A stretch of 64,000 nucleotides of DNA, from positions 186,001 to 250,000 of the forward strand of contig NZ_JAIOAO010000004.1 in assembly GCF_021190955.1 (NCBI RefSeq), written 5' to 3'. Below the pieces are notes generated by a model that saw nothing but the letters and a program-made list of their open reading frames with translations, had not been told where the DNA came from and did not search any database. This document shows, in pieces, positions 3,857-6,838 of this stretch. The stretch's first letter is position 1. Each line of letters starts with the position of its first letter. A program made the position numbers and the translations under genes. This DNA comes from Parachryseolinea silvisoli. GTDB lineage: Bacteria > Bacteroidota > Bacteroidia > Cytophagales > Cyclobacteriaceae.

Positions 3857-4555
3857 TTAATCAAACAAAGTCAAATTCCCGAACTGATCAGCCGGCGGGG
3901 TTGGTATAATCAACGACGGCACGTCGGCAGCATTGTCACTAATGCGTGGCGATACCGAGTAGTGGTTTAAATATTCTGCTTCTAACGGCTTCAACAATCC
4001 CAGTAGGTCTGCCTCTGTACTTTCCTTGTTGAGCCACACAGCCTCTTCCTTTGGATCCAGGATCACCGGCATACGATCTTGCACCGACGCTACGAGCGAA
4101 TTCGCTTGCACGGTAATAACCGAGAAGGTGTGAAACTGATTGCCTTCTGTATCTTCATACTCGTCCCATGTACCGGCGAATGAAAACAATCCCGAGTCCC
4201 GGGCTACAAAACGAAAGGGAATAAAGCTCTTTTTACCCGCGCGCTTCCAGCCATAAAAACTATCGGCGGGAACGATACACCGATTCTTGATGATCGACTT
4301 TTGTTGTGCGGCTTTTTCGAGGATCGTTTCGGTGCGGACGTTTATAATCTTTTCACTGAGGGTTTTGTTCTTCGCCCATGCAGGGGAGGTGCCCCAGTAG
4401 AAATTAGAAATGCCTTGCGGGGCGGTATGGGTAATGACGGGTAGCAGCTGGGTGGTGGTGGCGTTGTAGCGCGGCTTGTAGAATTCTGGCACGTCTACTC
4501 CGAAACGGTCACTGAGCGTAGAGGCAGACGCAGTAATGCTATAGCGATCGATCAT
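3857..4555 (-). CDS. SRAP-family protein lacking catalytic residues
   Basis: SRAP proteins (E. coli YedK, human HMCES) form a thiazolidine cross-link between Cys2 and abasic sites in single-stranded DNA. This 232-residue protein has the fold landmarks: RYNATTTQLLPVI, INVRTET, CIVPADSFYGWKR, SFAGTWDEYED and QDRMPVIL. Of the YedK active-site residues Cys2, Asn75, Glu105 and His160, only the Asn (Asn72 here) is kept. The protein begins Met-Ile instead of Met-Cys, Glu is Gly102 and His is Gln159. The start at 4555 is fixed by the conserved RYS that follows. It is the last gene of a minus-strand run with TerC, DinB and the hydrolase. DNA cross-linking by the known mechanism is not expected. Confidence 0.88.
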   Translation of the reverse strand: MIDRYSITASASTLSDRFGVDVPEFYKPRYNATTTQLLPVITHTAPQGISNFYWGTSPAWAKNKTLSEKIINVRTETILEKAAQQKSIIKNRCIVPADSFYGWKRAGKKSFIPFRFVARDSGLFSFAGTWDEYEDTEGNQFHTFSVITVQANSLVASVQDRMPVILDPKEEAVWLNKESTEADLLGLLKPLEAEYLNHYSVSPRISDNAADVPSLIIPTPPADQFGNLTLFD

Positions 4556-4582: not shown

Positions 4583-5554
4583 TTACGTCAAGATAAATTG
4601 CAACGCGCGCTCTTCACTCCAATATAACCCATTTTTATTGATTTGTGCGAAGCCCACGTGGCCACCCCGCGTGATGCACTCAAAGGTGACCGATGCATGC
4701 TTTGCGAGTCGCTCCATCGGAAAAGAGTTTTTGCCGAGGAAAGGATCGTTCACAGCATTGACGATTAACGTGGGCACGTGGATGCCATCCAGGAAATGGA
4801 TTGAGCTATTGCGTTTGTAATAATCCAATGCACTGGCAAAGCCATGCAGCGGGGCGGTATAATATTCGTCGAACTCGAGGATGGTACGAATGTGCTCCAG
4901 GCGGCTTGTGTCGAGGCCTTGCATCTTTGCAGCCTTGCGGGTGATCTTCGATTTCAGGCTCTTCAAAAAACGGCGTGCATAGATCCAGTTTTCGCGCCTG
5001 GAAATTTCCAGGCAGGCATCGTGCAGATCGAGCGGTACGGAGAACACCGCGGCGCGGTGAATGGCCGGCGGCAGGGTGCGCTCACCCAGGTACTTCAGTG
5101 TAAGGTTGCCGCCGAGGCTAAAGCCGACCAGGTCGATTTGAGTATAGCCTTGCTGGATGGCGTGTTGTACGACGAGGTCCAGGTCTTCCGTCGCACCGCT
5201 GTGATAAAAGCGCAGCAGGCGGTTCATATCCAGCCCACAGCCGCGGAAGTTCCAGGCCAGCACGTCGAAGCCCTGTAGAAGAAAGGCTTTGGCCATGCCC
5301 TTGATATACGGACGTTGTGAGTCGCCTTCCAGGCCGTGCGACAGGATGAGCAAAGGCCGCATGCCGGCATCACCAGTCCTCCCGATCTGTTGGGATCGGG
5401 ACAGCCAGTCCAGGTCGAGAAAGTCGCCATCGGGCGTTTCGATGCGCTCGCGGGTGTAGGGAGGAAGCTCCACCGAGCGCATCAGGGCTGGAAAGATGGT
5501 TTCCAGGTGGCGGTTAAAGAGAAAGAACGGAGGGTTGTAGGGCACAAGGGGCAT
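4583..5554 (-). CDS. YheT-like alpha/beta hydrolase
   Basis: A 323-residue alpha/beta hydrolase of the YheT/ABHD1-3 group, which act as lipases or esterases on membrane or wax-type substrates. It begins with the family's PYNPPFFLFNRHLETIFPAL, then the oxyanion region LSHGLEGDS, the nucleophile elbow GFSLGGN (Ser146), the acid in NDPFLG and His in GGHVGF. The ATG at 5554 starts 12 bases after the DinB stop. A longer frame to 5728 would run antisense-like through the DinB gene and is rejected. Substrate unknown. Confidence 0.9.
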   Translation of the reverse strand: MPLVPYNPPFFLFNRHLETIFPALMRSVELPPYTRERIETPDGDFLDLDWLSRSQQIGRTGDAGMRPLLILSHGLEGDSQRPYIKGMAKAFLLQGFDVLAWNFRGCGLDMNRLLRFYHSGATEDLDLVVQHAIQQGYTQIDLVGFSLGGNLTLKYLGERTLPPAIHRAAVFSVPLDLHDACLEISRRENWIYARRFLKSLKSKITRKAAKMQGLDTSRLEHIRTILEFDEYYTAPLHGFASALDYYKRNSSIHFLDGIHVPTLIVNAVNDPFLGKNSFPMERLAKHASVTFECITRGGHVGFAQINKNGLYWSEERALQFILT

Positions 5555-5565
5555 AATACCGGATG

Positions 5566-6093
5566 CTACGACAAGGCCGCCACAATCTTGAGGTGCCCGG
5601 CGTGGTGTTCGCCGTGCCATGCGTAGCTGGCAATCAACTGATCGAGGCGAATGTGCTTCTTCGAGTCCGGGTGGAAGAACGAACGTTGCAGCTCCGGCTC
5701 GCGCAGCGAACGCAGCAAGGGGACCCACTTGGCGTGCAGACTTTTCAGCAGCGCAACCGCCAGGGCGGGGTCGGCAATAATCTCACCCGTTTGGGCCCAG
5801 GCGACTTCGTCGTATGCTTTGATGGTAGGAGTATCTTCCGTCAGCGTCCACTTGGTGCGGATGTAGGCGTTCAGGTGGCTATCGGGAATGTGGTGTAACA
5901 CCTGCCGGGCAGTCCATCCACCGGGGCGATACGGCGTTTCCAACTGACGCGGGGAAAGACCTTTGAAGAGCTTTTCGATCTCCGCGGGCACAGCCTCGAT
6001 GCGATCGATCAGCGCAGTAATTTCAGCCGCGGTATACGAGGCTTTACCCTCGTTGCGACCGATGGGGTAGCGTAAGGCTTCGTCGTTACTCAT
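5566..6093 (-). CDS. DinB/YfiT-like putative metal-dependent hydrolase
   Basis: A 175-residue four-helix-bundle protein of the DinB/YfiT superfamily, which includes bacillithiol S-transferases. The N-terminal LRYPIGR motif is close to that of YfiT/BstA proteins. His residues in VLHHIPDSH and in the C-terminal WHGEHHAGHL are placed to form the metal-binding triad. Its ATG overlaps the end of the TerC gene by eight bases, so the two are probably translationally coupled. A role in thiol-based detoxification is inference from the family. Confidence 0.88.
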   Translation of the reverse strand: MSNDEALRYPIGRNEGKASYTAAEITALIDRIEAVPAEIEKLFKGLSPRQLETPYRPGGWTARQVLHHIPDSHLNAYIRTKWTLTEDTPTIKAYDEVAWAQTGEIIADPALAVALLKSLHAKWVPLLRSLREPELQRSFFHPDSKKHIRLDQLIASYAWHGEHHAGHLKIVAALS

Positions 6094-6838
6094 GAAATTC
6101 TTCTTTGACTTTCTTGCGTTTGCCGCGTGCGCGGATGTTGATCATCTCGATTCCCATCGAGAACACCACCGCAAAGTATATATATCCTTTCGGAATATCT
6201 TTACCAAGCCCCTCAAGAAAGATCATAAAACCGATCAGGATCAGGAAGCCCAGGGCCAGCACTTCCATCGATGGGTGACGGTTGATGAACTCGCTGATTT
6301 TACCCGAGAAAATCATCATGATACCGATCGATAGCACGACGGCAATGATCATGATGATAATTTCATTGGTCAAACCGACAGCCGTCAGGATGGAGTCAAA
6401 CGAAAAGATGATATCCAATAATACGATCTGTACAATAACATTTGATATGTTCACTTTTTTCTGACCGCTTTCCGCGCTTAGCTCGTCCTCGCCTTCCATC
6501 TCGTGGTTGATCTCTCGCGTACTCTTTGCAATGAGGAACATACCACCAAAGATGAGGATGAGGTCACGGCCGCTGATGGCACCGTCTTCAGCCATCCAGT
6601 GCGGTACTTCAAACAGGGGGCGGGTAAATTTCATCACCCAGGTAATGGTCAGTAGCAGCAAGACACGTACGCCCATGGCCAGTAAGAGGCCTATGTTGCG
6701 GGTACGGGCCCGGTACTCGGCAGGTAAGCGGTTCGAAACAATGGAAATGAATATGATGTTGTCAATCCCAAGAACAATCTCAAAAAACGTTAGCGTTAAC
6801 AAGGCAAGCCAGGTTTCCGCGTGAAGGAATATTTCCAT
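6086..6838 (-). CDS. TerC family integral membrane protein
   Basis: A 250-residue polytopic inner-membrane protein with the TerC hallmarks FFEIVLGIDN near the N-terminus and IIFSFDSILTAVG in the middle, each placing an acidic residue inside a membrane helix. About seven hydrophobic segments can be counted, separated by a charged loop (EMEGEDELSAESGQKK). The family includes tellurite-resistance TerC and manganese exporters such as Alx and YkoY. It is the first gene of a four-gene minus-strand unit. Metal export is inference. Confidence 0.92.
   Translation of the reverse strand: MEIFLHAETWLALLTLTFFEIVLGIDNIIFISIVSNRLPAEYRARTRNIGLLLAMGVRVLLLLTITWVMKFTRPLFEVPHWMAEDGAISGRDLILIFGGMFLIAKSTREINHEMEGEDELSAESGQKKVNISNVIVQIVLLDIIFSFDSILTAVGLTNEIIIMIIAVVLSIGIMMIFSGKISEFINRHPSMEVLALGFLILIGFMIFLEGLGKDIPKGYIYFAVVFSMGIEMINIRARGKRKKVKEEFHE

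Follow-up and report, generated by a model that had tools for sequence, protein, structure and literature searches.

SRAP proteins, from bacteria to humans, have been accounted for largely by a single reaction, and the cysteine at their second position has been called absolutely conserved (PMC3765255). In E. coli YedK, E105 is needed for ring opening and Schiff-base formation, a C2A variant still makes the Schiff base via its N-terminal amine and keeps lyase activity, and trapping and lyase activity are severely impaired in the C2A/E105Q variant, which is 25-fold slower (PMC9436759). Human HMCES, which shares the SRAP fold and forms covalent cross-links to apurinic/apyrimidinic (AP, or abasic) sites, has been suggested to travel on PCNA via a C-terminal PCNA-interacting peptide (PIP) box, a motif that the same paper itself finds to fit the AlkB homologue 2 PCNA-interacting motif (APIM) better (PMC8053108), and its end-joining role requires DNA binding and not cross-linking (PMC10250235). 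SRAP-like partners of UmuC-like polymerases have also been described and were proposed to act by binding another protein (PMC12926913). Here, we analysed a window of 64,000 nucleotides from Parachryseolinea silvisoli (contig NZ_JAIOAO010000004.1, positions 186,001 to 250,000), which encodes a SRAP-fold protein without the cross-linking residues, and we conclude from sequence comparison that this protein has very probably ceased to cross-link abasic sites yet is still needed. In the literature searched, mostly without subscription papers, we found neither a clade of Cys-less SRAPs nor a bacterial SRAP with a clamp motif described.

Catalytic residues of the window protein and its clade

The window protein is certainly homologous to the SRAP superfamily, matching Pfam SRAP (PF02586) with 177.7 bits against a cut-off of 27.1 over residues 1–206 of 232. 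Its AlphaFold model reached a predicted local distance difference test (pLDDT) score of 93.7 and a predicted template modelling (pTM) score of 0.90, and a Foldseek search with this model returned 2f20, HMCES and YedK as top matches, all 21 matches at E ≤ 0.001 being interpreted as SRAP structures, several of them titled by gene or target name only. The initial annotation had described an otherwise intact 232-residue protein in which Cys2, Glu105 and His160 are replaced by Ile2, Gly102 and Gln159 and Asn75 is kept as Asn72. Alignment with YedK taken from E. coli MG1655, our reference for residue states, bears this out (state INGQ), and a HMMER alignment gives the same pairing at positions 105 and 160. 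As judged by these alignments, the window protein falls outside the cross-linking SRAP class (YedK/HMCES type) at three of the four residues, Cys2, Glu105 and His160, with Asn75 present.

The resemblance to YedK extends to the fold (Foldseek E values of 2e-16 to 6e-13 for its chains) and to Asn75, R4, R74 (YedK R77), W103 (W106) and R161 (R162), and the window protein also keeps a basic stretch at K104/K108/K109, but it carries an extra C-terminal tail that is missing in YedK. Two conserved pocket-rim arginines, R86 and R180 of 1zn6, are predicted DNA contacts (PMC3765255), and in our own reading they correspond to YedK R77 and R162. Bacteroides BT_1218 (PDB 2f20; 29–30% identity), which among solved structures is closest in both sequence and fold, differs in keeping the active-site Glu and His, its residue 2 lying outside the alignment. 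The His of BT_1218 stands one place nearer the Pro than in YedK, and the window protein has no His at either the 160 place or the shifted place (..VQDRMP). A methionine before isoleucine is not expected to be cleaved. Given that Cys2 and Glu105 are absent and that the N-terminal amine would be misplaced by the uncleaved Met, we take cross-linking to be lost.

An assembly error or a wrong start was considered and ruled out, as relatives share the residue loss. The closest named relative, a Dawidia soli protein of 90% identity, starts MIDRY and carries A102 and Q159, so that all three residues are gone, and the SRAPs of two same-genus genomes (G074 and G127) start MIERY and MIDRF; the other four named relatives come from Cyclobacteriaceae and Flammeovirgaceae metagenome-assembled genomes. 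No canonical Met-Cys start lies upstream of the ATG in the open frame of 241 codons, nine of which precede it. A canonical paralogue elsewhere in the 7.9-Mb genome was likewise ruled out by a Pfam search that found this SRAP as its one match.

To place the protein among its relatives, SRAPs were collected from overlapping sets of genomes at the level of the family (148 searched, 146 matched), the order (194 and 111) and the class (198 and 105), with the window protein as query, which favours near relatives. The regions fetched, a subset of all matches, comprised 120 further family, 40 order-level and 40 class-level loci. In the first set of 154 SRAPs, made up of the window protein, those of the family loci and the five named relatives, 64 had C2, E105 and H160 together, 62 had none of them, 24 had one and four had two. 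The merged set held 233 distinct SRAPs besides YedK, and 12 were dropped for being short or having a gap at a catalytic column, leaving 221 aligned. Ten of the 12 keep N75, E105 and H160, lost residue 2 only through start choice, and would probably add canonical rows (C/N/E/H) without the tail; the other two are L157, an eroded copy at a contig end, and L209. Seven family loci were omitted as duplicates, three of which (L186, L188 and L190) belong to other genomes, start MCGRY and carry the tail, so that including them would increase the 44 canonical tail rows counted. Start choice at the class level favoured Met-Cys, and the starts obtained (MCY, MCF and MCG) look homologous.

Cys2 is missing in 95 of the 221 aligned SRAPs. 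A C-terminal tail pattern, [DN][QL].G[NSH]..LF, occurs in 154 of the 221, of which 44 are canonical and 110 are not, including 78 that are fully eroded, that is, have lost C2, E105 and H160 together; a His at the shifted place of BT_1218 was found in none of these 78. The 67 SRAPs without the pattern comprise 62 canonical and five non-canonical rows. Three of the five (L207, L229 and L235) show partial erosion and have related tails; the other two are fully eroded, L243 with an ELTLF end of its own and L247 as a tail member in which an X masks the pattern. Of the 80 fully eroded rows, only these two miss the pattern. Outside the order, C2, N75 and E105 are kept in 40/40 class-level SRAPs and a His stands in the H160 column in 31/40, the other nine being long forms that we take as misaligned, while all sixteen further rows among L161–L185, mostly class-level, have Cys2. 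By these alignments, the window SRAP belongs to an order-wide clade in the Cytophagales and is not one odd gene, and the loss at residues 2, 102 and 159 is common to the Dawidia soli protein and the 78 fully eroded members.

In an IQ-TREE phylogeny of 84 chosen rows, from which the catalytic columns were excluded, at least 14, 14, 11 and 9 changes were counted at positions 2, 75, 105 and 160, respectively, or 22, 14, 13 and 22 if loss is assumed to be irreversible, and a FastTree phylogeny of 222 rows gave 18, 16, 13 and 13; these counts are rough, many forks being weakly supported. Seven outgroup rows are canonical, and the direction of change is therefore most simply loss. Intermediate states persist in living genomes (MSERY..E..H, MPGRY..E..H, MCERY..D..N and MCERY..A..G). 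The sequence record thus shows that Cys2, Glu105, His160 and sometimes Asn75 (in 23/78 fully eroded proteins) were lost repeatedly in the order-wide clade.

Among the 136 genomes covered in the window's family, 128 have one tail-clade copy and eight have none. A fully eroded copy is present in 56 and is the sole match in 27 of these; the remaining 29 have further SRAP matches, mostly unfetched, with a canonical one seen in G127 only, and a canonical backup may therefore exist there. In one order-level family (L222–L228 with L196, L202 and L246), each of the seven genomes listed has two SRAP matches; all seven of the tail-clade copies that were fetched are eroded, and the three others fetched are canonical without the tail.

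Selection and retention after the loss of chemistry

The ratio of nonsynonymous to synonymous substitution rates (dN/dS) was estimated by the Nei-Gojobori method for pairs more than 75% identical, using only those with dS below 2.5. Purifying selection was evident between the window and Dawidia soli SRAPs (dN 0.063, dS 1.11, ratio 0.056). The median ratio was 0.094 for fully eroded pairs (18 usable of 22), 0.040 for partly eroded pairs (3 of 4), 0.066 for canonical pairs with the tail (20 of 192) and 0.054 for canonical pairs without it (19 of 27). In the 78 fully eroded tail proteins, M1, N31, W54, G55, P163, W174, G226, L230 and F231 are invariant, and N227 (77/78), Q224 and W103 (each 76/78) and K104 (74/78) are nearly so, the conservation of the tail columns being in part a consequence of picking these proteins with the tail pattern. 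Within the window protein, positions 4448–4465 encode NATTTQ, as in Dawidia soli, where a Pro stands in 76/78 fully eroded proteins.

Retention extends to an order-level family of reduced genomes (1.0–1.6 Mb), which, judging by size and order, may be Amoebophilaceae-like symbionts. Exactly one SRAP above the Pfam cut-off was found in 15/15 of these genomes (L208–L221 and L247), and Cys2 is missing in 15/15, L209 reading MIDKY; the AlphaFold model of one of them keeps the fold (pLDDT 90.0, pTM 0.88). Taken together, loss of the chemistry under purifying selection on the fold and tail is well supported at the sequence level. A new role, as the initial annotation had suggested, is accordingly likely in the sense of a role without a cross-link, given the missing residues, the intact fold, the position close behind a hydrolase gene and purifying selection, any specific role being a proposal.

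The median net charge is −2 in fully eroded, −2.5 in partly eroded and 0 in canonical groups, and −4 in the window protein; an acidic DNA mimic was considered and is a weak candidate, as YedK itself carries −8.

The C-terminal tail and candidate functions

The conserved C-terminal tail, which is among the best-conserved parts of the protein, and the clade-wide occurrence were both missing from the initial annotation. The tail resembles beta-clamp-binding peptides, whose consensus is QL[SD]LF and whose form in DNA polymerase II is QLGLF (PMC3716654), and the C-terminal Leu-Phe expected of a clamp client stands at residues 230–231 of 232. An LF within the last five residues is present in 153/154 tail-clade SRAPs, which were selected for the pattern, and, independently of the pattern, in 29/62 canonical SRAPs without it and in 11/40 class-level SRAPs, against a baseline of 6/899 neighbouring open reading frames of at least 150 amino acids. 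In other groups, canonical SRAPs have the C-terminal ends QLDLF (L172/L178), QLKLF (L149), QGSLF (L236–L238) and QLGLF (L277), which as sequences fit or approach the clamp consensus, and binding to the clamp may be widespread in the SRAPs of this phylum. Within the window genome, a Y-family protein taken as DNA polymerase IV (Pol IV) ends PADQLTLF, a second Y-family protein has QIDLF and MutL has QQSLF. The tail would likely tether the SRAP to the DNA polymerase sliding clamp.

The reading that we prefer, tentatively and at somewhat less than an even chance, is that of a non-cross-linking SRAP that is tethered to the clamp and acts non-covalently at replication forks. The C-terminal tail (..DQFGN[YL][TS]LF) would tether the SRAP to the sliding clamp, and the clamp-held protein would then cover single-stranded or primer-template DNA non-covalently and/or compete for the clamp with its other clients, Pol IV among them, with the cross-linking chemistry as an optional addition to an older SRAP function at the fork. 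It is possible, though somewhat more doubtful, that clamp-tethered non-covalent activity at the fork is the core job of SRAP throughout this order and that the Cys/Glu/His chemistry is an add-on shed many times, even in genomes of 1.0–1.6 Mb with a single SRAP.

Several observations weigh against clamp tethering at the fork. The pentapeptide of the window protein starts with Asn227 and not Gln (NLTLF versus QL[SD]LF), a Gln standing three residues earlier, and an LF end is lacking in 33/62 canonical SRAPs without the tail pattern and 29/40 class-level SRAPs, so that a clamp tail is not general. In the AlphaFold model, the pLDDT of tail residues 221–230 averages 80 and that of residues 231–232 averages 53, DSSP assigns bridges at 222 and 228, and the model of the reduced-genome homologue has a similar tail pattern with bridges at matching places; as modelled, the tail is not clearly disordered and could lie packed against the rest of the protein. 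Across the 78 fully eroded proteins, the R77 position is basic (R or K) in 22 and acidic (D or E) in 26, and the R162 position holds R in 32. The predicted DNA-contact arginines are thus mostly lost in the clade, which speaks against a common DNA-binding mode. Finally, dS values were high, eroded pairs evolve somewhat faster than canonical pairs, and the frequent neighbours of these genes (a hydrolase and, by eye, a FabH-like protein) have no known link to replication.

Alternatively, and in our judgement unlikely, the protein would be a non-covalent shield of abasic sites or single-stranded DNA that binds through a YedK-like groove without reacting, the tail being only a structural lock of the fold. 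The residues kept by the window protein (R4, R74, W103, R161 and K104/K108/K109) are consistent with such a shield, as are the DNA binding that is not lost in Cys2-blocked YedK E105Q and H160Q (PMC9436759) and the fairly confident tail, whose bridges fall at equivalent positions in two divergent members, but the low counts of R/K at R77 and of R at R162 in the fully eroded clade argue against it, and a mere lock leaves the QxxLF-type ends of other SRAP groups unexplained. Non-covalent DNA binding, which the initial annotation had proposed, accordingly stays possible for the window protein, with its R4, R74 and R161, whereas YedK-like binding is unlikely as a shared function given the lost arginines; the regulatory decoy that it had offered as well is neither backed nor ruled out.

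The protein could also regulate a Y-family translesion polymerase as its subunit, the role proposed for SRAP-like proteins beside UmuC-like genes; this would fit the two Y-family matches in the window genome but is improbable. The described partners are linked to PolY genes (PMC12926913), unlike the loci analysed here, where no polymerase-like neighbour was found among the larger neighbour clusters of 153 loci (22 clusters, read by eye), and the reduced genomes keep SRAP in 15/15 but the Y-family polymerase domain PF11799 in only 8/15, these being drafts 54–93% complete.

A different chemistry, in which Asp/Glu3 and Thr/Ser/Gln160 would form a new active site, for example of a lyase or hydrolase, is more improbable still. 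Position 3 is D or E in 60/78 fully eroded proteins versus G in 44/44 canonical tail-clade proteins, and position 160 is T, S or Q in 61/78, as this explanation would have it; yet position 2 is I, V, P, L or F in 66/78 and position 105 is A, L, V, F, G or I in 67/78, mostly hydrophobic or small with no residue fixed, and from these columns the old active site looks more like a filled pocket than a rebuilt one. An acidic residue (D or E) is already present at position 3 in 15/19 partly eroded proteins that still have Cys2; the window protein reads Asp3 (4547–4549) where canonical tail-clade SRAPs have Gly3. Decay of a gene drifting after loss of function and heading for loss, to which the freely varying catalytic columns and the higher ratio of eroded pairs (0.094 versus 0.066) could point, is hardly credible against the low dN/dS, intact frames in the counted proteins, six invariant columns outside the tail and retention in all 15 reduced genomes.

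A clade that drops the reaction many times but keeps the protein, even in reduced genomes, separates the chemistry of SRAPs from their remaining function. This bears on the role of HMCES that needs DNA binding without the cross-link, and it suggests that bacterial SRAPs, like HMCES as proposed, may ride on the sliding clamp, HMCES with a different clamp and motif.

Gene neighbourhood and feature coordinates

On the same strand, the SRAP gene follows a YheT-like hydrolase gene at a distance of 27 bp, in keeping with the operon of the initial annotation, and the two genes are probably on the same transcript (Table 1).

Table 1 Features of the window around the SRAP gene
Feature	Coordinates	Strand	Basis or remark
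SRAP-fold protein without cross-linking residues	3857..4555	-	232 amino acids, stop included in coordinates; ATG start; Pfam, AlphaFold, Foldseek
C-terminal tail ADQFGNLTLFD, like beta-clamp-binding peptides	3860..3892	-	Conserved columns in 78 fully eroded SRAPs
Arg161 codon (YedK Arg162), supposed DNA contact, kept	4073..4075	-	Alignment
Gln159 codon, site of His160	4079..4081	-	YedK and HMMER alignments
Gly102 codon, site of catalytic Glu105	4250..4252	-	YedK and HMMER alignments
Arg74 codon (YedK Arg77), supposed DNA contact, kept	4334..4336	-	Alignment
Asn72 codon (YedK Asn75), kept	4340..4342	-	YedK alignment
Ile2 codon, site of cross-linking Cys2	4550..4552	-	YedK alignment
YheT-like alpha/beta hydrolase	4583..5728	-	Upstream of SRAP gene; start 5554 likelier than 5728
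DinB_2/YfiT-type bacillithiol transferase, not a DNA polymerase	5566..6093	-	Next upstream gene
TerC-family membrane protein	6086..6838	-	Further upstream

A homologue of the hydrolase is the immediate upstream same-strand neighbour in 86/153 SRAP loci with long flanks, and the hydrolase family, nearly always as the next gene, was found upstream in 37/38 canonical tail-clade, 33/59 fully eroded and 13/24 partly eroded loci. This neighbour is present in many loci of each residue state, so that gene replacement by transfer is not needed to account for them, gene and species trees not having been compared. A TerC homologue lies beside 9/153 SRAP loci. No RNA elements were found in the two reduced-genome loci examined. 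A plasmid search returned 758 records with SRAPs below 60% identity.
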